Shown here piece by piece: positions 24,276-60,424 of a stretch of DNA of 64,000 nt. The notes under the pieces are model-generated. The model was not told the DNA's origin and did no database searches. It was given only the letters and a program-made list of their open reading frames with translations. The translations under genes and the position numbers were made by a program. The DNA comes from Planktothricoides raciborskii GIHE-MW2 (GTDB lineage Bacteria; Cyanobacteriota; Cyanobacteriia; Cyanobacteriales; Laspinemataceae), in assembly GCF_040564635.1 (NCBI RefSeq), contig NZ_CP159837.1:4823001-4887000 (forward strand), given 5' to 3'. Position 1 is the stretch's first letter; each line of letters opens with the position of its first letter.

Positions 24276-27200
24276 ATGGACGACCAAAATCAAAACAATC
24301 AATTTGTCACCATCGATCTCATTGACGTGACCAATGGAAATGGCACAACCGCTCAAGTGAAACTTGAACAAGTCGAAGCTGGGGTTCAAGTCAGCCTTGA
24401 TAAGATAAATCCCATCGGCGATATCCGGGGAGTTTTCTTTAATGTTGCTGACAATGCTGCATTAGAAGGAATGACCGTCACGGGAGACAATGTAACCAGT
24501 TCTTCTTTTGCCGCTGATAGTGTTAATGATTTGGGTGGTGGTGTGAATGTTAATCCCGATCTATTTGATGGTGGGGTAGAAATTGGTACAGAAGGAATCG
24601 TTACTGATGACATCCAATCCACGACTTTTACTCTATCTAATGCAGCGGGTGATTTAACAGTCGATCAGTTTTTGAGTCAGGACTTCGGATTACGTCTAAC
24701 CAGTGTTGGGGAAAATCGCTCCGCCAGCAGTAAATTAGCAGGAACCGCCCCAGCAACGACGGAAGCGACTGAAGAAGTAACCGAAGAAACAACGGCGGAA
24801 ACCACTGCGGAAACCACTGATGATGTAACCGCAGAAGCGACGGCGGAAGTAACGGAAGACGCGACAGAAGCGGAAATTATTTCTGCCGAAATCGCTGAGG
24901 TAGAAGATTCCGGTATTTTTGATGAGGATGTTTATCTTGAAGAAAATCCAGATGTAGCTCAAGCGGTGGCAGCCGGTGAAACTACTGCGATTGAACATTT
25001 TGTCAAATATGGCAAGTATGAATTCCGTCAATTCAGCCGCATTTTTAGTGTTGAGGCTTACTTAGAACAAAATGCTGATGTGAAGGCAGCGGTAGAAGCG
25101 GGTGAAACTAATGCGATCGCGCACTACCTCCAATATGGTCAATTTGAAAAGCGTGAATTTAGCTATATTTTCAAGAGCAGCTACTACCTAGAACAAAATG
25201 CAGATGTAGCCGAGGCGGTTGAAAGCGGTGTCACCAGCGCCCTGGAACACTTTAAAAAATACGGCATGAAAGAGGGTCGGAAGTTTAATCCCTTGATTAA
25301 TACTGAAGAATATCTGAGCTTGAATGCTGATGTGAAGGCAGCAGTAGAAGCCGGTGAAACCAGCGCGATCGAGCATTTGTTTAAGTATGGTTGCAAGGAA
25401 AAACGCAAGTTTAGTCGTGCTTTTGATGTCCAAGAATATCTCAGCCTGAACCCTGATGTGGCTGAAGCTGTAGAAGCTGGTCTGACCACAGCATTTGAGC
25501 ATATGTTTAATTATGGGTTCACAGAGCTACGCAAGATCAGCAAGTTTTTGGATCTGGGCTTCTTTGCTCAAGCGAATAGCAGTTTACTGCAAAGTGTTTT
25601 CAATGTGACTGAAGTTGCTCAAATTGATGCGACTGCACTGGTTTCTTATGCGATCGACCAGTCCTTTGCCCAAGGGTTACAAACTTCGGAATCTTTCAAC
25701 CTCAGCAGTGCGATCGCCAGTCTTTCTGGTTTCAGCAGCCAACAAATTAGCAGCTTGTTTGATGTCAGCAGTGCCACTGAAGTTAGCTTTGGTTCCCTGG
25801 TTGAATTCTTTAGCAATCTGTTTACCTCTCTGGAAACTAGCTTCACCAGCCAACAGATTAGCAGCTTCTTTGGTGTAGCTACAGTCAGCGAAATCAGCTT
25901 TGAATCTCTGTTAGAATTTGTCAGCACCAGTTTTAGCACTCTAATCAGCAGTTCTTCTAGCACATCCATCTCATTGGAGTCATTGTTAGAGTTCATATCC
26001 TCGAGCGAAGGTCAAGAAGCGATCGGCGGTGCAATGGACGATGATGCCGATAATGCCAATAATGCTGATAATGCTGATAATGCCAATGGTGATGCGGAGC
26101 TAGTGCTAAATATTCCCCTGCCTTCTGACAGTCAGCCGATCACCCCAGTATCTCCGGAAGAACCGGGCGATCAACCGAGCGAAGAACCGGGCGATGATGC
26201 TTCCCCAATCCCAGCACCCACGGCGTTTCTTGATGTTCAATACATTATCAAGAACAACCAAGACAAGTTGGCAGAACAGTTCCCAGAGTTTGATTTCGCG
26301 AACCTGACCCAAGAGCAAGTAGACGCTATCTTGAAATTTGCCCAAGACACACGGTTGAACACTTCCGCTTTTGTGAATGTGTCTTACTTCTCAACGGTGA
26401 TTCAGACCAAAGTCACCAGCAAACTGATTGCCCAAGGCTTGACTGAAACAGAAATTGCCGGACTCAGCCAGGAAGAGTTGATCAAGAAAGGTATTGAACT
26501 CGGTTTCAGTCCGACCCCATTGATTAAATTAGGATGGCTGAAGTCAGCGAACGGCAAGAAGCTGGAAGCATTGGGCATTAAGATCGAGAATAACCTCGAA
26601 CTGTTCGAGTTTATTACCTCTAAGGAAGGTTTAGAACTAGGTCTGAATTTGTCGCCATTCTTTAACCCTGGTTTTGCCAAGAAAATTCACAAGGATAAGA
26701 TTCGGGAAAAATTCGATATTGCCGACGGGGAAGAAGGCGTTGCTCAACTCGAAGAGGCACAAGTTCTCGACAAAATCTTTAGCAATGGTGGCATCGTTAT
26801 CGACATCCGCTTCTATAAGGAAGTTCACATAGAAGCACTGAAAGCATTTGCGGCAGATTTAGGGGTTGCAGTTGATGACCTGACCGATGAGCAAATTACT
26901 GATTTTGCTCTGAATGAAGGGAAGGAACAAGGACTCGCACTGTGTCCGTTTAAGTTCGATGTTCTAAGTGAGACTTACAGCGATAAACTCAAGGAATTCT
27001 TTGGGGTCGAAGATGTCGAAACCCTGACTGAGTATGAACTAAAACAGTTTATCTTTCGGCCTGCTGTAGAAATGGGAATCGATCTTACCCAAGTGGTCGA
27101 TGTCCAATTCTATAAGACTAAATTTACGGCGGCGCTGACTCAATATGTTGGGGCAAGTTTTACCGATCAAGATGTGATCAATTTTGTGTTCGGTAATGGC

Positions 27201-29654
27201 GCTCCTTATGTTGATGAGGAGTATTACAAGGCTCAATATGGCGAAGAAGTCACCGCTGATGGTTTGCTGGTGAAAGACCTGGAAGGTGAAGAATTGAAAG
27301 CCTATATCTTCACGGAAGGTTTGGAGGCTGGTTTGACGAAACTTTCAGCATTTGATATTGCTAAGTACAGCACAGATCATCAGGACAAATTACTCGCTTT
27401 CTTTGGTGTCACCGATGTGGCAGAACTCAGCCAAGGTCAAGTCCGTGAGTTCATGGTCAAGGAAGGCTGGAAGTTTGGCATTAATCTGTCTGATTATGTT
27501 TCTGCGGAAGATATCGAACTCTATCGCACAGAAAATGCAGCCCTGCTGAAAGAGTTGTATGGGGTGGAAGATGTCAGTACCCTCAGCGCTGAGTTGGTTC
27601 TGGATGCCGAGTTTGGCGGGTTGACTGATGGACTAGATGCTGACTTCTGCTTGAGTGGCTTGGTGACTAAGCTGGGTGAAGCGGCTGTACTGTCAGCCTT
27701 TGGGGTAGATTCGATCGCCAAAGTCTCCTATAAGCAATTGGTTGAGTATCTGTACTCCCAACCAACTTTGGAAGGCGTTGAAATCTCACCATTCAAGGTG
27801 AGTGAATATGTCAAGGCTAATGGTCAAGCGATCGCCGATGCTTTAGGTATTGATCTCAAGGAAGTGGCAGAACTCAAGCCTGATGAGATTGTTGAGTTTA
27901 TGCTCGGTGAAGGGGCCGCACTTGGTATCAGTCTTGAAGGGTTCGTGGCAAGTGCTTACTTTGAAACCACCTACGCGGCGGCGATCGCGGCTTCCGGTAA
28001 GGATGTTCAGACCTGGTTAGCGGAAGATTACAAGACCATTGATGCTGGCTTCGTCGGCTATCAGTTTGAAAACTTGACCGCTGAGGAGCAAACCACCATC
28101 TTAGATGCTTTAGGTATCACTTTGGCTGAAGGCGCTACTTTAAGCACTAAGCAACTGATTGATATTGCCTACAGTGCTGAATTCAAGGAAGTCTTAGGGG
28201 TTGAAGAAGTCAAACTGTCTGCGATCGACATTGCTGGCTATGTTGAAGCCAACCAGCAAGCACTGATTGACTACTTTGCGGCACCAGGTATCAAGATTAA
28301 GAGTGGCTCTAAGAAGTTTAAGAGCGGTTCTCTCAAGTTTGGTAAGAGCGGTTCCCTCAAACCCAAGAGTGGCTCGCTGAAGTTTGGCAGTAGCTCGATT
28401 AAGCTCAAGGGCGATCGCTCGATGAAGCTCAAAGCCAAGTCTCTGAAAGTTCAGAAGAGTGGCAACCTTAAACCCGATCAAATCGCTCCGGTTGATACTT
28501 TCGATGTCACCAAGCTGACCGATAAGCAAGTGATCGAGTTCATGTTCGATAAGGGTGTGGAACTCGGAATCAACCCCATAGAATTCGTGGAAGTTGATTA
28601 CCTGAAGGCAGAATTCGCAGTTAAAATCGCCGAACGTTATGGCATTGATGTGACTGCGGTGGCTGAACTCCCTGATGCCATAGTGGTTGATGCGATCTAT
28701 GGCGGTCTGTCTAATGACATTGACTATGAGTTTGTCCGGGCTGAGTACGGCGCTGATTTAACCAGTAAGTTTGGGGTGGCGATCGAGCAAGTCACCGACT
28801 TACAAGTTCTGCAATATGTCTATGAAGTCGGCGTTGCCAGCGAAGTCAATCCTAGCGGCATCAAGATTACTCCGGTTGATGTGGAAGGCTTTGTTAAGGC
28901 TAATGGTGAGGCGATCGCCCAAGAACTCGGCTTGAAACTGGAAGAGTTACCCACCTTCAGTTATGAGGATGTCTTTGGCTTCATCTTCAAGCAAGGTGCT
29001 GACCTCGGTCTGAACCTCAAAGGTTTCGTCAACTTCGATTACTTCAAGGCCGAATTCACTCAAAATATTGTCTTCAACTATCGCGAAGAGAATGTCTTCA
29101 ACATCGGTGCGGACAAAGTTTATGAATTCATAAACTCTCCCGAAGGGCAAGGTTTGTCCGCATCACCCCTGTACGATCCAGCATGGTATCGTGAAACCTA
29201 CCTAGTCGATCTGAATGTCGATCTCAATGGTGATGGTGCCATTGATGAAGAGGAAGAGCAAGCTGAAATAGTCCTGGATCTCAATGGCGATGGTAAAATC
29301 GATGATGTTGAACTCAAAGACTTTGCCACGGGTCAAGGTTTAGACAAAGGTCTGGAAACTTCTAAGCACTATGACTTTGACAAGGACTTCGCGGAGGGTG
29401 CGGTTGCTCAAGATAAGCTCTTGGCTTATGCAGGCGTCCAGTCGATTGAGGATGTCACTTTCAGTCAGAAGTTAGAATATCTCACCGGCCAAGGTCTGAT
29501 TGATGGTTATGTGTTCAGTGGCTTGCAAGCGATCAAGGATAAGCCAGAAAACCAAGATCCGCTGTTGAACAAGACTGGTGCTGCTTCTCTGGATGAAATT
29601 ACTCCGGTAGATTTGTACCAAGCGGCTACTGAGTTGCAACTGTTCTCTGTCTAA
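24276..29654 (+). CDS. giant repeat protein, probably surface or secreted
   Basis: 1792 codons from ATG, with GGAG upstream. A beta-rich N-terminal domain (1-150) has no signal peptide. Then come a Thr/Glu linker (~156-214), five 42-residue repeats (~215-424) of the type Y-L-x2-N-x-D-V...H...Y-G-x2-E-x-R-x-F, and degenerate Ser-rich units (~425-580). An Asp/Asn/Pro linker (~586-650) follows, then about 21 units of ~48 residues (core F-G-V-x-D-V-x-x-L-S-x2-Q-V-x-E-F...G-I-x-L-S). One unit carries a Lys/Ser-rich insert with repeated KSGSLK (~1340-1399), another a pair of EF-hand/dockerin-like loops DLNGDGAIDEEE and DLNGDGKIDDVE (~1649-1684). Acidic and nearly free of Cys. No RTX nonapeptides or enzyme motif seen. 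A sheath, S-layer or filament protein is plausible; the export route is unknown. Confidence 0.85.
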   Translation: MDDQNQNNQFVTIDLIDVTNGNGTTAQVKLEQVEAGVQVSLDKINPIGDIRGVFFNVADNAALEGMTVTGDNVTSSSFAADSVNDLGGGVNVNPDLFDGGVEIGTEGIVTDDIQSTTFTLSNAAGDLTVDQFLSQDFGLRLTSVGENRSASSKLAGTAPATTEATEEVTEETTAETTAETTDDVTAEATAEVTEDATEAEIISAEIAEVEDSGIFDEDVYLEENPDVAQAVAAGETTAIEHFVKYGKYEFRQFSRIFSVEAYLEQNADVKAAVEAGETNAIAHYLQYGQFEKREFSYIFKSSYYLEQNADVAEAVESGVTSALEHFKKYGMKEGRKFNPLINTEEYLSLNADVKAAVEAGETSAIEHLFKYGCKEKRKFSRAFDVQEYLSLNPDVAEAVEAGLTTAFEHMFNYGFTELRKISKFLDLGFFAQANSSLLQSVFNVTEVAQIDATALVSYAIDQSFAQGLQTSESFNLSSAIASLSGFSSQQISSLFDVSSATEVSFGSLVEFFSNLFTSLETSFTSQQISSFFGVATVSEISFESLLEFVSTSFSTLISSSSSTSISLESLLEFISSSEGQEAIGGAMDDDADNANNADNADNANGDAELVLNIPLPSDSQPITPVSPEEPGDQPSEEPGDDASPIPAPTAFLDVQYIIKNNQDKLAEQFPEFDFANLTQEQVDAILKFAQDTRLNTSAFVNVSYFSTVIQTKVTSKLIAQGLTETEIAGLSQEELIKKGIELGFSPTPLIKLGWLKSANGKKLEALGIKIENNLELFEFITSKEGLELGLNLSPFFNPGFAKKIHKDKIREKFDIADGEEGVAQLEEAQVLDKIFSNGGIVIDIRFYKEVHIEALKAFAADLGVAVDDLTDEQITDFALNEGKEQGLALCPFKFDVLSETYSDKLKEFFGVEDVETLTEYELKQFIFRPAVEMGIDLTQVVDVQFYKTKFTAALTQYVGASFTDQDVINFVFGNGAPYVDEEYYKAQYGEEVTADGLLVKDLEGEELKAYIFTEGLEAGLTKLSAFDIAKYSTDHQDKLLAFFGVTDVAELSQGQVREFMVKEGWKFGINLSDYVSAEDIELYRTENAALLKELYGVEDVSTLSAELVLDAEFGGLTDGLDADFCLSGLVTKLGEAAVLSAFGVDSIAKVSYKQLVEYLYSQPTLEGVEISPFKVSEYVKANGQAIADALGIDLKEVAELKPDEIVEFMLGEGAALGISLEGFVASAYFETTYAAAIAASGKDVQTWLAEDYKTIDAGFVGYQFENLTAEEQTTILDALGITLAEGATLSTKQLIDIAYSAEFKEVLGVEEVKLSAIDIAGYVEANQQALIDYFAAPGIKIKSGSKKFKSGSLKFGKSGSLKPKSGSLKFGSSSIKLKGDRSMKLKAKSLKVQKSGNLKPDQIAPVDTFDVTKLTDKQVIEFMFDKGVELGINPIEFVEVDYLKAEFAVKIAERYGIDVTAVAELPDAIVVDAIYGGLSNDIDYEFVRAEYGADLTSKFGVAIEQVTDLQVLQYVYEVGVASEVNPSGIKITPVDVEGFVKANGEAIAQELGLKLEELPTFSYEDVFGFIFKQGADLGLNLKGFVNFDYFKAEFTQNIVFNYREENVFNIGADKVYEFINSPEGQGLSASPLYDPAWYRETYLVDLNVDLNGDGAIDEEEEQAEIVLDLNGDGKIDDVELKDFATGQGLDKGLETSKHYDFDKDFAEGAVAQDKLLAYAGVQSIEDVTFSQKLEYLTGQGLIDGYVFSGLQAIKDKPENQDPLLNKTGAASLDEITPVDLYQAATELQLFSV

Positions 29655-29790: not shown

Positions 29791-29823
29791 CCAACCCCCC
29801 GAAACATCCGGGGAGTTTTTTTA
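29791..29823 (+). terminator. second terminator with U-run
   Basis: CCCCG/CGGGG stem with a 7-base loop, followed by AG and seven T. Classic intrinsic terminator layout, making a tandem termination zone after the giant gene. Confidence 0.7.
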
Positions 29824-43154: not shown

Positions 43155-46100
43155 ATGTCCATTGACATTAACCAACTATTTGATGCCAGATACTATGCAT
43201 TAATGAACCCAGATTTAGCGGCAGCGGGAATTAACACTGACGATAAATTATATCGGCATTTTAGAAATAATGGGTTAGCAGAAGGTCGCCCTTTTTCTCC
43301 ATTTATCGATATCCAGGTTTATCGGGCGGAAAATCCCGACTTAGAAAAGAATGGTCTATACTCTAATGAACAACTTTATCGCCATTTAGAAACCTATGGG
43401 ATCAAAGAAGGTCGCAAATTTTCTCGACTGATCGATCTGAATTTATATCTGAGCGAAAATCCCGATGTTAACCAAGCTTTTGGGGGCGATCGCGAATTAG
43501 CCTTTGAGCATTTACGCAACCTAGGCATCCGCGAAGGTCGTAAATTTTCGCAATTAATGGATTTAGATTATTACTTAGCCCTAAACCCCGATGTAGCGGC
43601 GGCATATAATAACGATAAACTCGGTGCTTTTAATCATTGGATTTTTGCCGGACGGGGGGAAGGAAGGCAATATTTTCCTAATAATTTGGGCATATTAACC
43701 GGGGCGGATAATATTAACCCGGTTAATTTAGTCAAAACCGATGTAGTTGGCCCCAGCGATCGCGACGATTATTATCAATTTTCTCTCAATGATTTGAGCG
43801 ATATTAGTATCAAAGTAGCCGGTTTGTCCCAAAAAGCCAATTTAACCCTCATTAAAGATGACAATCAGAATAATTTTCCCGATGATAAGCAGCAGTTATT
43901 GCCGATAGTTGCGAAAGATGAAGCAATTGAGGCGATCGACTTATTTGGAGTTTCTCCCGGTAACTATTTTATTCAAGTTTCCGGCAGTGAAGGAGACACT
44001 AATTATGATTTAAACATCTATGCAGAAACATCAGAACTATTGCGGAAACCCAGTGGCGCGGGGAACAGTCCGGGGACGGCATTAAATTTGGGATTATTAA
44101 TAGAATCTCAAGTAGTTCGGGATGTGGTTAATCCAGGGCGATCGCAGAACTTTTATCAATTTCAAACTAATCGCCAGAGTGATGTATATATTACCCTAGA
44201 AGGGGTGAATACAGACATCCGCTTACAATTAGTCAGAGATACCAATGGCAATGGACTGCTTGACCCCGATGAAGTCGTAGAAACTATTGCCAACTATAAA
44301 GAACCTGTAGATATAGATCGCAATGGAGAAATTGATTTATCGGAATTTTTTGCCTGGTTAGATGGCACCAATCAAGAGGTGCCTTATCCTGATGCAATTA
44401 TTGCCCAAAATTTACTCCCAGGCAACTACTTTGTCCAAGTGGGTCAAGTCGGTGAACCCACAGGTTACACCCTCAAAATCGATGGGATTCCTGCCCCCGT
44501 CCCCGCAGAAGGTGCGACTAATGAAAATCCCGTTTCTTGGGGCAATTTAGGTACTCTCAACAAAAAAGCTAAACCCGTAGTAACTGACTTTGTAGGCTAT
44601 GGCAACCCTTATGATTTCTATGCTTTTTTCCTAGAAAAAAGTAGTGAAGTAAGTTTACGTTTACAAGGTATTAATAACAAAGCAGATTTAATTTTAATTC
44701 ACGATATTAATGAAGATGGAGGATTTTCGGGTCGAGAAATCATTAAGTTTCCCTCCGCAGAAGATGGGGCAGACTATACTTTAAATCGCCTCTTGGGACG
44801 GGGGACTTATTATGTCGGAGTTGCCAAGGCAAAAGGCGAAACTGCCTATACTTTGAGTGCGGAAGTTATTTCTGAGAATTTGCCCCCAGATGGGGCGGGA
44901 AATTTTATCGGTCAAGCGGCTGATTTAGGGGTAGTCAATGGGGTACAAACCCGCCGAGATTTTGTTAGTGCTGAAGACCCGGATGATTTCTATCGTTTCC
45001 AAGTCAATGATTTTAGTCAATTGACTCTATTTTTGGATGAACAAACCGCTAATAGCCAAGTTTATTTAATCCAAGATGTGAATGGCAATGGCTTGGTTGA
45101 TGGGGATGAAGTGATTGTCGGTTCTGAATCCCAAGGGGCTTATCGTGAATATATTAATCGTACCCTAACTCCCGGCACTTATTTTATCCGCGTAGCTCAC
45201 GCAATGGGGCCAGGTTCCTATTATTTATGGATGGAAAATAACCCAATTACTCCTCCTGCCCAAACCGCCGGAAATAGTTTAGCTACCGCCAAAGATTTGG
45301 GAGTATTGAATGGCTGGCAACAGGAAGCAGGATTGGTGACTGGCAATAATGAAGGGGGCGATCGCAATCATCTGTACCGATTTAACCTGGAATCAGCCAG
45401 TGATGTGACTATTTTGCTTGATGAAATGTCAGCAAATGCGGATATCCGGTTGGTTCAAGACCGCAACAATAATGGCCAAATTGAACCAGAGGAAATTATC
45501 GCGATCGCTGCTGCAACTGGAGCAAGTCCAGAACAAATTAGCCAAAGTAATTTAGCCCCAGGAACTTATTATGTTTGGGTATCTCAAACCCAGGGAAATA
45601 CGGCCTATCAACTCAACTTAATTCCTAACAATTATAACCGGGATACGGGTCATGGATTAGTCGATGCAGCGGCAGCAGTTGCTCAAGCCATTGGTTCAGA
45701 ATCGTTTCCCGAAGTTGCGCCCTTGGGTGGGACGGACTGGGGCTTAGATGCGATCGGTGCCCCCAAAGTTTGGCAGCAAGGATATACCGGGAAAGGAGTA
45801 GTTGTCGCGGTGATTGATAGTGGTGTTGACTACACTCATCCTGATATCGATGATAATCTTTGGTTTAACGAATCTGAAATTCCCGGAAATGGCATTGATG
45901 ATGATAATAATGGCTTTATTGATGATTGGCGCGGCTGGGATTTTCTGGATAATGATAACGATCCCAAAGATACAGATCCCGTCGGCGGTCATGGCACTCA
46001 TGTAGCGGGAATTATTGCCGGGGAAAATAACTCTTTTGGCGTGACTGGAGTTGCCCCCGATGCCAAAATTATGGCCATCCGATCGCTGGGTATTTTCCGA

Positions 46101-46640
46101 GGCGAAGAAGACCCGATTACTGGTGGGATTCGTTATGCTGTTGATAATGGCGCTGACGTAATTAATCTTAGCTTGGGTTCTCAGGGAGAAAATCCCGAAA
46201 TTTCCGCAGCGGTGCGCTATGCCAATGAAAACGGTGTAGTAGTAGTCATGGCATCAGGAAATGATGGCCTCAGTGCAATTTCTGGCGGTCAACGTTTTAG
46301 CCAAAAAGTTTATCCGGCACAATTAGCATCAGAAATCGGCTTGGCAGTCGGGGCAGTGGAAAAAAACAAGGCGATCGCAGATTTCACTAATCGTGCAGGC
46401 AGCACTCCCCAAAATTATGTAGTTGCACCGGGCAAAGAAGTCTATTCTTCCCTATTAAGCGATCGCTATGATTTTTGGGAAGGCACATCAATGGCTGCCC
46501 CCCATATTGCTGGAGTAGCGGCCTTAATTATCAGCGCCAATCCTAATTTAAATCTGGCACAAGTGGAAAATTTAATCACCAGTACAGCAAACCCATTTGG
46601 GCTGACAGAAAATGGCATTTTTGATCCCTTAGAATTGTAA
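43155..46640 (+). CDS. surface subtilase (S8) with N-terminal 42-residue repeats
   Basis: 1161 codons from ATG. Residues ~8-175 are four 42-residue repeats (Y-x3-NPD-[LV]...H...G-x2-EGR-x-FS) matching those of the 1792-codon protein. Then come about five beta-sandwich domains of the PPC (bacterial pre-peptidase) kind (~180-820), with Ca-binding-like DTNGNGLLDPDE and DVNGNGLVDGDE. The peptidase is C-terminal: Asp888 in VIDSGVDYTHPDI, His946 in GHGTHVAG, Ser1112 in GTSMAAPH, with oxyanion Asn in ASGNDG. A GHGLVDAAAAVAQAIG segment, usually at a subtilase end, precedes the catalytic domain. No signal peptide is seen. Probably exported and Ca-dependent; the substrate is unknown. Confidence 0.92.
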   Translation: MSIDINQLFDARYYALMNPDLAAAGINTDDKLYRHFRNNGLAEGRPFSPFIDIQVYRAENPDLEKNGLYSNEQLYRHLETYGIKEGRKFSRLIDLNLYLSENPDVNQAFGGDRELAFEHLRNLGIREGRKFSQLMDLDYYLALNPDVAAAYNNDKLGAFNHWIFAGRGEGRQYFPNNLGILTGADNINPVNLVKTDVVGPSDRDDYYQFSLNDLSDISIKVAGLSQKANLTLIKDDNQNNFPDDKQQLLPIVAKDEAIEAIDLFGVSPGNYFIQVSGSEGDTNYDLNIYAETSELLRKPSGAGNSPGTALNLGLLIESQVVRDVVNPGRSQNFYQFQTNRQSDVYITLEGVNTDIRLQLVRDTNGNGLLDPDEVVETIANYKEPVDIDRNGEIDLSEFFAWLDGTNQEVPYPDAIIAQNLLPGNYFVQVGQVGEPTGYTLKIDGIPAPVPAEGATNENPVSWGNLGTLNKKAKPVVTDFVGYGNPYDFYAFFLEKSSEVSLRLQGINNKADLILIHDINEDGGFSGREIIKFPSAEDGADYTLNRLLGRGTYYVGVAKAKGETAYTLSAEVISENLPPDGAGNFIGQAADLGVVNGVQTRRDFVSAEDPDDFYRFQVNDFSQLTLFLDEQTANSQVYLIQDVNGNGLVDGDEVIVGSESQGAYREYINRTLTPGTYFIRVAHAMGPGSYYLWMENNPITPPAQTAGNSLATAKDLGVLNGWQQEAGLVTGNNEGGDRNHLYRFNLESASDVTILLDEMSANADIRLVQDRNNNGQIEPEEIIAIAAATGASPEQISQSNLAPGTYYVWVSQTQGNTAYQLNLIPNNYNRDTGHGLVDAAAAVAQAIGSESFPEVAPLGGTDWGLDAIGAPKVWQQGYTGKGVVVAVIDSGVDYTHPDIDDNLWFNESEIPGNGIDDDNNGFIDDWRGWDFLDNDNDPKDTDPVGGHGTHVAGIIAGENNSFGVTGVAPDAKIMAIRSLGIFRGEEDPITGGIRYAVDNGADVINLSLGSQGENPEISAAVRYANENGVVVVMASGNDGLSAISGGQRFSQKVYPAQLASEIGLAVGAVEKNKAIADFTNRAGSTPQNYVVAPGKEVYSSLLSDRYDFWEGTSMAAPHIAGVAALIISANPNLNLAQVENLITSTANPFGLTENGIFDPLEL

Positions 46641-56404: not shown

Positions 56405-57937
56405 ATGGAAGCTGAAGAACTGATCAAAAAATATGCTTTGGGCGAAAGAAATTTTGCTGGTAGTAACCTGACTGAAGTCAATCTTTCCCAGTTAGATTTA
56501 CGAGATATCGATTTAAGTGGAGCCAACTTGAGTATTGCGAATCTCAGTGGGACGAATCTCTCTGGGGCGAATCTTTCTCATGCAAAAATGAATGTGGCTA
56601 AACTGAATAGCGCTCATTTGACAGGGGCGAATCTGTCGAGTGCGGATCTCAATGTTGCTAATTTAATTAGAGCGGATCTGAGTGATGCACAACTAATCAA
56701 AGCGGCTTTAATTAGAGCGGAGTTGATGCGAGCAGAATTAAGTGGAGCTAATTTAGCACAAGCGAATTTAAATGGCGCCAATTTACGCGAAGCTAAACTC
56801 AGACAAGCCAACTTAGTCAATGCCAATTTAACGGAGGCAGATTTTCGCGGAACTTCTCTGATTGGGGCTAATCTTGAATTATCAAATTTGCGAGAAACGA
56901 ATTTTAGTGAAGCGGATCTCACCGCCACTAATTTGAGAAATACAGAGTTGAGACAAGCGGATCTCTCTAGTGCCAAATTGATTGGCTCCGACTTGAGTGG
57001 GGCGAATTTGCGCTGGGCAGACTTAAGTGAGGCAAATTTGAGTGGGGCTGACCTGACGGGAGCGAAATTGAGTGGGGCGAATTTACGAGGCGCGAATTTG
57101 CATCAGGCGAATTTAATTGATGCGAGTTTAGTTTATGCGGATTTACGCCAAGCTAATCTCAGCGAGGTGGATTGGATGGGGGCGGATCTTTCTGGGGCGA
57201 CCTTAACCGGCGCCAAACTTTATGCGGTGTCTCGTTTTGGTCTGAAGACTGAAGGGTTAACTTGTGAGTGGGTTGATCTGAGTCAAAATGGCGATCGCAC
57301 ACAAGTTTACCGATTTACCGGCCAAGGAGCGGAAAGCTTTTTTCATAATACGTTGCCAACGGTGCAAATTATTATTGATGCTCCCTTGGATGCCGATGCT
57401 CATTTAGCGGTTGCCCTGACCTATCATCAAATTGCTCAGAGGTATTCCGCCATGACGATTCCGCCAAATATTGAACTCAGTCAACGGAGAACCAAACTCA
57501 CTTTTACAATGGACAGTGACCAGAGTTTATTTGCGATCGCCTTCGCCGCTATCCTGCCTTTTGCTGATGCTAAAGTTACCCAAGAAAATCTGATTCATGT
57601 GGTGCAAATGATTCAATCTCCTGAAATCTTAAATCGACTGAATCAAGCGATAGAAAGTGTTAAAGAAATCCATAATTCACCAACCTTTACTCGCACAGTC
57701 CAAAGAGAAAAATTTTTTCAGGCTCATACCCAAACCCTATTAACCAATTCAGGAAATCGAACCTTGGATGTATATCATAATCCTAACTTTGGCAAACGTT
57801 TGTTAATCTCTTTAATTGCTGAAATCTCAGAATTCGTCATTTCTGTCCCCAATTTAAAATTGCCCCCTGTCAATATTATTGTTAACTTTATCAAAGGTTT
57901 AGATGGTGGTAATTATCGTCCAGGCAATTACCGATAA
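56405..57937 (+). CDS. pentapeptide-repeat protein, copy A
   Basis: 510 codons from ATG, with AGGGTAGGG upstream. It begins MEAEELIKKYALGERNFAGS. Residues ~15-285 hold about 50 A(N/D)LxX pentapeptides, forming a right-handed beta-helix, with a small break at LRWADLSEANL. The C-terminal ~220 residues are a separate domain (LKTEGLTCEWVDLSQNGDRT, then VQIIIDAPLDADAHLAVAL) shared with copy B and not known to me. Pentapeptide helices bind partners or mimic DNA; no enzyme motif is seen. Cytoplasmic by sequence. Confidence 0.92.
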   Translation: MEAEELIKKYALGERNFAGSNLTEVNLSQLDLRDIDLSGANLSIANLSGTNLSGANLSHAKMNVAKLNSAHLTGANLSSADLNVANLIRADLSDAQLIKAALIRAELMRAELSGANLAQANLNGANLREAKLRQANLVNANLTEADFRGTSLIGANLELSNLRETNFSEADLTATNLRNTELRQADLSSAKLIGSDLSGANLRWADLSEANLSGADLTGAKLSGANLRGANLHQANLIDASLVYADLRQANLSEVDWMGADLSGATLTGAKLYAVSRFGLKTEGLTCEWVDLSQNGDRTQVYRFTGQGAESFFHNTLPTVQIIIDAPLDADAHLAVALTYHQIAQRYSAMTIPPNIELSQRRTKLTFTMDSDQSLFAIAFAAILPFADAKVTQENLIHVVQMIQSPEILNRLNQAIESVKEIHNSPTFTRTVQREKFFQAHTQTLLTNSGNRTLDVYHNPNFGKRLLISLIAEISEFVISVPNLKLPPVNIIVNFIKGLDGGNYRPGNYR

Positions 57938-58861: not shown

Positions 58862-60424
58862 ATGGAAGCAGAGGAAATTCTCAAAAAATATGGCGATGGA
58901 GAAAGAAACTTTTCTGGGATCAACATCACAGAAGTTAACCTCAGTCGAGCAAATTTAGCTGGGATCAACTTCTCTGATGCCACCCTGAGTATTGCCAATC
59001 TCAGTGGCGCCAATCTTAGCGAAGCAAACCTAACGGGTGCCAAACTCAATGTCGCCAAAATGAGTGGGGCAAATTTTACCCTGGCCAAATTCAATGGCGC
59101 CATTCTCAATGTCGCCAACTTAGTCCGGGCTAACCTTAAAGGCACAGAAATGATCCAAGCGGCTTTGATTCGGGCAGAAATGATTAGGGCGGAAATGTCC
59201 GAAGCCAACTTGCGGGAAGCCAACCTCAGTGGGGCGGATCTGCGAGAAGCCCAACTCAAACAAGCCAATCTCAGTGGTGCCAACTTGAGTGAGGCGGATA
59301 TGCGCGGATGTAGTCTAGTGGGCGCCAACTTAGAACACGCCACCTTGAGTGCCACGGATCTCAGTCGATCGGATCTCAGTGGGGCTGATCTGAGTGATAC
59401 AGAACTCAGGCACGCGAATCTCAGTCGGGTCAATCTCAATGGCGCCAATTTAAGAGGGGCGAATCTGCGCTGGGCTGACCTCAGTGGTGCCAATTTAAGA
59501 TGGGCTGACCTGAGCGATGCTAAGTTAAGTGGGGCGAATTTACTAGGAGCCGATTTGACCAATGCGACTTTAACCAATGCCAGCTTTGTTCACGCTGATT
59601 TAACCCAAGCGAATTTGATTCGCGTTGACTGGGTGGGGGCGGATCTCAGTGGCGCTACATTAACGGGAGCTAAACTTTTTGCCGTAGCCAGATATGATCT
59701 CAAAACTGAAGGGATTACCTGTGAATGGGTTGATTTGAGTGCTCACGGCGATCGCAGTAAAATCTACAGATTTACACCAGAACAAGCGAAAAAGTTTTTC
59801 AATCAAACCCCACCGACGGTGCGGATTATTGTGGATGAGCCGAACGATCCGGAAGCGAATTTGGCTCTAGCAAATACTTATTATCAAATTTATAAACAAT
59901 GTAATTTGTGGCACCATTCTCCTAGTATTGAAGTAGGATTTCGCCGCACCCAAATTATTTTCAAGGTTGATAGTGACGAGCAAATTTTCCCAACGGCTTA
60001 TTTAGCAGTTTTACCCTTTGAAAACGCTAGAGAAACCCAGGCGAATATTGTGCGATTGATGAAAATGTTGCAAGGATATGCGATTAAAAGTCATAGCATG
60101 GAAGCTTTGAAGCAAATTAAGCAATTGAGTAGAGCTTTGAGTCAAACGATGCAAATGACTCAAGAAATGAAGCTGGAACTGCCAAAAAACTCTGAAGGAA
60201 TGAAGCTAAATTTTTTACAGGCTCCTACTCAGGTAAAAATAACGAATTCAAGAGATCGCACCATTGACCTTTATCAAGACCCCAGTTTTGGGCAAAGGTT
60301 AATTCCTTCATCGTCGGCCTTTAATTCCGTGAAAGATCGCCACCTGAGAAGCAAAAAGAACGATTCATTGTCTTTGGAAAAGTTAGTGGAGTTTGTTCAA
60401 GGATTTTATTATTTAGAAGAATAA
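58862..60424 (+). CDS. pentapeptide-repeat protein, copy B
   Basis: 520 codons from ATG (MEAEEILKKYGDGERNFSGI). The layout is the same as copy A: a beta-helix of about 50 pentapeptides, the LKTEGITCEWVDLSAHGDRS joint, and a C-terminal domain with VRIIVDEPNDPEANLALANT. It clearly arose by duplication of a common ancestor; codon choice has diverged and the C-termini differ in the last ~120 residues, so the duplication is old. Function unknown. The DUF1517 gene follows after 55 bases. Confidence 0.92.
   Translation: MEAEEILKKYGDGERNFSGINITEVNLSRANLAGINFSDATLSIANLSGANLSEANLTGAKLNVAKMSGANFTLAKFNGAILNVANLVRANLKGTEMIQAALIRAEMIRAEMSEANLREANLSGADLREAQLKQANLSGANLSEADMRGCSLVGANLEHATLSATDLSRSDLSGADLSDTELRHANLSRVNLNGANLRGANLRWADLSGANLRWADLSDAKLSGANLLGADLTNATLTNASFVHADLTQANLIRVDWVGADLSGATLTGAKLFAVARYDLKTEGITCEWVDLSAHGDRSKIYRFTPEQAKKFFNQTPPTVRIIVDEPNDPEANLALANTYYQIYKQCNLWHHSPSIEVGFRRTQIIFKVDSDEQIFPTAYLAVLPFENARETQANIVRLMKMLQGYAIKSHSMEALKQIKQLSRALSQTMQMTQEMKLELPKNSEGMKLNFLQAPTQVKITNSRDRTIDLYQDPSFGQRLIPSSSAFNSVKDRHLRSKKNDSLSLEKLVEFVQGFYYLEE

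Follow-up and report, generated by a model that had tools for sequence, protein, structure and literature searches.

A very acidic repeat protein of filamentous cyanobacteria joins a widespread unnamed module to a longer, lineage-restricted array

RTX proteins are apparently abundant in cyanobacteria and their function is described as mostly elusive, and a part in motility is described for three of the large exoproteins, oscillin, SwmA and Sll1951 (PMC3034196, in its passages on these proteins). The repeat protein described here is encoded in a stretch of 64,000 nucleotides from Planktothricoides raciborskii GIHE-MW2, which we call the window. It resembles these RTX exoproteins (as portrayed in the same passages) in its size, in its putative calcium sites and in having no N-terminal signal by eye, and two of its relatives (L047 and L061) carry RTX blocks. 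Unlike them, it has no RTX nonapeptides, and the stretches that were modelled are alpha-helical rather than beta-roll; no RTX array fills much of the protein, in contrast to oscillin, as the passages of PMC3034196 describe it, and to S-layer RTX fibril proteins. The second group for comparison comprises proteins with a repeat of 40-42 residues (PDV...HF...G..EGR), here the type-1 unit. The five N-terminal units of the window protein are clear members of this group, and its more numerous type-2 units are distant kin, but in several other proteins type-1 units accompany another domain (subtilase, GT61 or RTX), whereas in the window protein a much longer type-2 array follows them and Pfam detects no catalytic domain. 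Canonical 12-residue loops at residues 1649-1660 and 1668-1679 recall EF-hand proteins; unlike those, the relatives have one site each (the window protein, L052 and L053 have a pair) amid loops without calcium ligands. Finally, Ser/Thr kinases with GUN4 (the cbSTKII class) are on record (PMC2176072), and the neighbour gene in five lineages is one of these; it is a partner of the repeat protein by gene order only, and the GUN4 passages of PMC2176072 mention no such neighbour. We see the protein as a variant of the RTX-associated repeat exoproteins and not as a system of a new kind, part of its architecture being a widespread unnamed module and the larger part a lineage-restricted relative of that module.

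The host genome consists of one contig of 7.2 Mb. The protein is very acidic, with 306 Asp/Glu against 130 Lys/Arg, a pI of 4.2 and 3 Cys in 1792 residues. The features of the gene, its surroundings and one further gene of the window are listed below by window position.

24276-29654, + strand: coding sequence of the repeat protein, ATG start, 1792 residues, with orthologs in other genomes
24303-24725, + strand: N-terminal domain (residues 10-150), common to a PEP-CTERM protein and an RTX protein
24744-24911, + strand: Thr/Glu-rich linker (residues 157-212), from sequence, with short tandem repeats at 24762-24865
24918-25547, + strand: five type-1 units of exactly 42 residues each (residues 215-424), from profile matches and AF2 model
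25551-25688, + strand: first type-2 unit (residues 426-471), 26.9 bits against a shuffle maximum of 6.9
25707-26009, + strand: Ser-rich stretch with degenerate type-2 half-units (residues 478-578), from profile scores
26034-26219, + strand: Asp/Asn- and Pro-rich linker (residues 587-648), from sequence, with a 9-base tandem repeat
26229-28286, + strand: type-2 block A, about 14 and a half units (residues 652-1337), from profile, segmented by eye
28287-28487, + strand: Lys/Ser/Gly linker (residues 1338-1404) within the loop of one type-2 unit
28488-29651, + strand: type-2 block B, about 7 and a half units (residues 1405-1792), from profile and AF2 model of 1402-1792
29220-29255, + strand: EF-hand loop DLNGDGAIDEEE (residues 1649-1660), by pattern; this extra copy is confined to the window, L052 and L053 among 18 sequences
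29277-29312, + strand: EF-hand loop DLNGDGKIDDVE (residues 1668-1679), by pattern; Pfam EF-hand_5 at 1.8e-4, below cut-off
29797-29813, + strand: terminator-like hairpin followed by a T run
43155-46640, + strand: separate gene for a subtilase (L023), with PPC domains and an EF-hand by Pfam, and with four N-terminal type-1-like units

A sequence-only reading of this DNA had the units joined by Thr/Glu, Ser and Asp/Pro linkers. Such linkers (Thr/Glu, Ser, Asp/Asn/Pro) are present, but they part the blocks, and the units inside a block stand head to tail. The N-terminal domain (about residues 10-150), which is probably beta-rich as judged from its sequence, the Lys/Ser/Gly linker inside a type-2 unit and the two EF-hand loops are features beyond that reading. 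A Pfam scan of the protein gave no family above cut-off, and searches of NCBIfam, PHROGs and, with the single sequence, the PDB gave no match. Among the papers listed on kinase-GUN4, RTX and type I secretion, gliding, the exoproteome, Planktothricoides and Laspinema, few of them from subscription journals, no title or opening of an abstract described the repeat protein, and the searches turned up no data on its expression or localisation. The view that no characterised protein has this layout stands for the whole, as far as searched; the 42-residue unit is in itself a common module. Six terminator-like sites were found in the region against 6.9 expected, by number no better than chance.

Unit profiles came from a search seeded with the window units, the final units being taken from relatives only, with the window and its sister genome left out. 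The type-1 profile (consensus FDAEEYLELNPDVAAAVEAGETTALEHFFQFGIKENREFS) matched five of five units at residues 215-422 with a 42-residue period and 58-64 bits, against 3.1 bits for the best of 300 shuffles, which bears out the five 42-residue repeats read from the letters. The type-1 unit is a widespread unnamed module of RTX proteins, M10 peptidases, subtilases and glycosyltransferases. Its stretch was matched in 54 plasmid records (15 Azospirillum, 11 Bradyrhizobium), the 20 best of which all fall within residues 213-467, and the matches underlie genes annotated as M10 metallopeptidase, calcium-binding protein and glycosyltransferase. A GT61 protein carries type-1 units, and no type-2 unit was found in it. 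The unit consensus met no Pfam or NCBIfam family above cut-off. Inside type-1 units, DUF5338 (PF17273) scored 24.6 bits in the window protein, below the cut-off of 25.9, and 27.0 bits, just above it, in one homolog (L064). Only part of the profile is covered, so that the match is possibly due to chance; in L064 it may otherwise hint at kin.

The type-2 profile (consensus VDLEYYRETYAEELAAFFGVESVEELSDEQILEFMLGEGLEAGLNPSPF) matched 27 stretches at E<=10 between residues 426 and 1745, and 20 of these exceeded the 6.9 bits of the best of 300 shuffles. Segmentation by eye places 22 units at residues 652-1792; 18 of the 22 include a stretch above shuffles, and the other four (starting near 797, 1225, 1256 and 1747) were recognised by eye alone. 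About 21 units of roughly 48 residues had been read from the letters, and the number holds at about 22, but the length is not constant: it ranges from 31 to 66 residues, mostly 44-52, apart from one unit that includes a long linker. Within the Ser-rich stretch, the half-unit at 525-551 scores 16.2 bits, above the shuffles, and those at 488-513 (2.3 bits) and 560-576 (-1.1 bits) lie inside the shuffle range. The linker in the type-2 loop (1338-1404) is kept in position in most homologs, but not in sequence or charge. The window protein, L039 and the Laspinema group have a linker of KSGS type; that of L058 is composed of Lys/Arg/Thr, and that of L060 is a nearly neutral, long KDTG run. The linkers of L059, L061, L062 and L063 are net acidic, and L047 has hardly any. 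The KDTG repeat of L060 (about residues 1515-1830) is very long and perfect, and the whole linker there measures 332 residues. At the DNA level the window gene contains short repeats only, in 2.1-5.1 copies.

The two unit types had been thought to look related, and a comparison of profiles supports this: a broad type-1 profile, made from 61 units of other proteins with mixed proteins removed, aligned with type 2 over all 41 columns at a Prob of 94.6% (P 7.2e-8), and none of 100 controls (99 with shuffled columns, one reversed) exceeded 2.2%. The profile grew from seven seeds that were selected by eye, in part for a likeness of their ends to type 2. In the strict comparison, L047 and L061 were left out on both sides, as were type-2 units below 44 residues, and 61 of 66 type-1 and 157 of 215 type-2 units were kept. 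The kinship is visible only profile to profile and depends on the broader type-1 profile, since a direct HMMER search of the window type-2 region with the type-1 profile gave nothing above shuffles. Type-1 units of the orthologs alone were rejected as a route to it, as they gave a Prob of 8-10% over the first 15 columns only.

The AF2 model of residues 203-475 is confident (pLDDT 87.9, pTM 0.82) and divides the type-1 unit into helices of about 7, 8 and 9 residues. The model of residues 1402-1792, in the type-2 array, is of moderate quality (pLDDT 71, pTM 0.49); its better parts, the only ones used, show the helix order of type 1 with a short helix added in the loop. Both unit types are thus predicted to be helix-kink-helix-loop-helix, the loop being longer in type 2. 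A Foldseek search with the two modelled stretches gave no PDB match with an E below 3; the best E was 8.1 with the type-1 model and 3.5 with the type-2 model, which is only moderately reliable. Known solenoids such as TPR, HEAT and ankyrin were found neither by Pfam nor by Foldseek against the PDB. In a viral structure library, type 1 resembles glycosyltransferases of giant viruses with a best E of 4.4e-7, the best rows having TM-scores of 0.16 or less.

A canonical 12-residue EF-hand loop was found by pattern in 16 of 18 homologs, the window included, where one type-2 unit has its loop. Of the two exceptions, L063 has Met at loop position 8 and so escapes the pattern, and the contig of L064 ends before the unit. 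Two such loops occur in the window, L052 and L053 only among the 18 sequences, and from their sequences the two in the window are likely to bind calcium. EF-hand_5 scores 21.3 bits in the window protein, below the Pfam cut-off of 25.9. When a profile of block B was compared with the PDB, the 13 matches at E<=1 were all EF-hand proteins by name (calcium-binding protein, calmodulin, polcalcin, mitrocomin; best E 0.0029), and these EF-hand chains were matched through the EF loop.

The 1792-residue frame is matched at 80% in the sister genome and at 30-45% elsewhere (type-2 region); Planktothricoides sp. SR001 reaches 99% over the type-2 region. Within its own family the full-length gene is present in 11 of 13 genomes, the host included; in another (G011) pieces of the gene lie on separate contigs, and in the last (G012) there are only type-1 matches among the matches listed. 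One of 26 other genomes of the order that were searched (G031) has the full-length gene. In the class-wide search 3 of 291 genomes matched, including the host, and the other two (G281 and G076) were rejected as type-2 relatives because they have type-1 units and no detectable type-2 units. This search missed a single type-2 unit in G016, a genome from another family of the order, so that scattered type-2 units may be commoner than these counts suggest. Scanning genome contigs for two peptide patterns turned up 13 loci (Planktothricoides 2, Laspinema 3, Oscillatoria 3, Geitlerinema, Zarconia, and 3 from Oscillatoriales/Oscillatoriaceae bins). All type-2 arrays that were observed belong to genomes of Oscillatoriales type.

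To compare units by position, 21 of the 22 were used and the linker-bearing unit was left out. The best match of a window unit was its positional counterpart in 19 of 21 cases for L044, 18 of 21 for L039 and 14 of 21 for L047, from three other genera. Mean positional scores were 98, 54 and 46, against 3, 2 and -6 for other units; a multiple alignment supplied the counterparts, a procedure that tilts the test a little towards position, and the margin is large anyway. Units compared with each other inside the window have a mean score of -1. From these sequence comparisons the array looks ancient, with every unit retained individually. The number of type-2 stretches per homolog runs from 11 (in L064, cut by its contig) to 29.

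The window genome also holds a C-terminal remnant of a second paralog, 184 residues long (L048:7692-8243; G000:C1, about 2567700-2568260, - strand). About 5.1 kb within this gene is absent, with a 5-base overlap at the join, and SR001 has an intact frame of 1913 residues at the same site (L063).

Gene order was compared at 17 loci by way of flanking ORFs that recur between loci, those without a match elsewhere being left out. In 9 of the 17 (L038, L039, L041, L042, L044, L045, L046, L047 and L058), from five lineages, a Ser/Thr kinase gene lies directly downstream on the same strand at about 90-370 nt; five of the nine belong to one genus. All six adjacent kinases that were scanned (L038, L039, L041, L044, L047, L058) have Pkinase and GUN4 above cut-off, and in four genomes (G002, G003, G005 and G006) the adjacent kinase is by a wide margin the genome's best match to the kinase of the Laspinema group (L044). 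The kinase is about 4.3 kb downstream in L040, contigs end too early for the check in L043 and L064, and no neighbouring kinase was found at the window, L037, L059, L061 or L063 loci. Upstream, gcvP is present in 9 of the 17 (L038, L039, L041-L047). In the window genome the repeat gene is at C1:4847276, the kinase ortholog 2 Mb away at C1:2834088 and gcvP at C1:2532434; since both stand elsewhere, the gene appears to have left, or to have been copied from, its ancestral site.

The kinase ortholog of G016 also has GUN4 and lies between RTX proteins, two upstream (1030 and 911 residues) and one downstream (949 residues), with RTX scores of 304, 396 and 339 bits, above the Pfam cut-off. The three surround the kinase-GUN4 gene at L071:2444-13889. 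The downstream protein starts with the single type-2 unit (i-E 2.2e-6, 21 bits) and continues with 17 RTX stretches.

Export of the repeat protein may be suggested by RTX in two relatives, by the kin of its N-terminal domain, by the RTX neighbours of the orthologous kinase and by a genomic HlyD. RTX nonapeptides exceed the Pfam cut-off of 23 in two of nine relatives scanned (L047 and L061; 32.5 and 35.9 bits) and are absent from the other seven. In L061 they lie inside the loop linker (best stretch 1387-1417), and in L047 they form a block between the type-1 and type-2 parts (444-472). PF00353 (RTX nonapeptide) had no match in the window protein even when E values as high as 10 were allowed, and inspection by eye showed neither a signal peptide nor an anchor nor an RTX-like C-terminus. 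Its N-terminal domain is 50% identical over residues 17-166 to a protein of G025 (L017) with a PEP-CTERM motif (23.4 bits, cut-off 20.7) and, by eye, a Sec-type signal; an RTX protein of 1722 residues with type-1 units (L050) is 35% identical over 11-415. The window genome has 157 RTX matches, and a type I HlyD at 211.9 bits, barely above the cut-off of 208.65. Type-1 units in the window subtilase and in plasmid genes for M10 metallopeptidases and calcium-binding proteins were also counted for export. Glycosyltransferases with type-1 units are presumably cytosolic, so the module alone is no proof of export, and the kinase next door, presumably cytosolic too, was counted against it. Against a surface location we also counted that the window gene and the sister copy do not stand beside the kinase, and that the type-2 unit of G016 is single and scores 21 bits.

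The best available explanation, to which we give a probability of about one in two, coincides with the guess of a structural surface protein made from the letters: an exported, calcium-stabilised, very acidic and elongated protein of the surface, sheath or slime of filamentous Oscillatoriales. From the architecture, the kinship and conservation of the units, the conserved EF-hand loop and the gene order that the sequences provide, we envisage two rods behind a small N-terminal domain: a first one of five type-1 units and, beyond a flexible spacer, a long one in which about 22 type-2 units would hold one loop-inserted spacer. Both unit types would share one predicted fold, and lengthening of the loop may have turned type 1 into type 2, a direction of descent that we infer. 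In one unit the loop would be an EF-hand, and calcium bound there would lock the C-terminal part after export. The role of the protein would be mechanical. Type I secretion is the probable route, since no N-terminal signal was seen by eye. From gene order, the kinase-GUN4 gene adjacent in five lineages probably controls when the protein is produced or exported.

The same gene order, with Pkinase and GUN4 in every adjacent kinase scanned and, in four genomes, the wide margin by which the adjacent kinase matches the Laspinema-group one, would also suit a cytoplasmic scaffold or substrate of the kinase, in which the arrays hold partners and phosphorylation of a Ser/Thr-rich linker changes their reach. 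The lack of RTX in the window protein and the basic KSGS-type or Lys/Arg/Thr linkers of several lineages agree with such a role, but it is made unlikely by the RTX repeats of L047 and L061, by the near absence of a linker in L047, and by a window gene that has been retained with no kinase beside it, the ortholog being 2 Mb off. Linker charge, near neutral in L060 and net acidic in L059, L061, L062 and L063, is not conserved, and the idea of a phosphorylated basic linker is weakened for that reason. The occurrence of type-1 units in the GT61 protein and in plasmid genes annotated as glycosyltransferases would be accounted for if the repeat were a glycan-associated module and the protein a helper in polysaccharide binding or assembly. 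The fold match to giant-virus glycosyltransferases (E 4.4e-7, but TM-scores of at most 0.16 in the best rows) and a family-2 glycosyltransferase upstream in L059 point the same way, yet neither the window protein nor the unit consensus has a glycan-binding Pfam family above cut-off, the GT61 protein lacks type-2 units and, among recurrent flanking ORFs, glycosyltransferases were recognised in L059 alone; we hold this to be quite improbable.

That the array has no function and drifts and expands freely, as a spacer or selfish repeat, is largely contradicted already and has very little to recommend it. The low-complexity linkers do change fast between species, as in the long KDTG run of L060, and homologs differ in how many type-2 stretches they have, between 11 (cut by the contig) and 29, but individual units are preserved in their places (for L039, 18 of 21, with a mean of 54 versus 2 for other units and alignment-cut counterparts that favour position) and repeats in the DNA are short. 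Returning to the structural surface protein, a more ambitious form of it would make type 2 a solenoid unit with no family entry or solved relative and an EF-hand in its lengthened loop, the rods calcium-gated, and the GUN4 kinase, perhaps tetrapyrrole-sensing, the element that sets production or export; we regard this combination as a long shot. If the kinase did sense tetrapyrroles through GUN4, light or chlorophyll status would be tied to the filament surface.

The function of large surface proteins of filamentous cyanobacteria is mostly unknown, as the passages of PMC3034196 state for RTX proteins. In the present gene a common module of exoproteins and glycosyltransferases comes together with a long array derived from it, with a likely calcium site and with a specific kinase, and the gene may show how an EF-hand-like loop arises within a helical repeat. 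Five genomes of one genus (three of them titled Laspinema) share the gene order, so that the assembly of the surface and the control of this process would be testable there. Two further gene groups were observed in passing. Beside the paralog remnant, L048:4019-7594 contains four related genes in a row, assigned to the Uma2 family by a Pfam match of the SR001 copy. In the window itself, two pentapeptide-repeat proteins with similar starts are encoded close together at 56405-57937 and 58862-60424.
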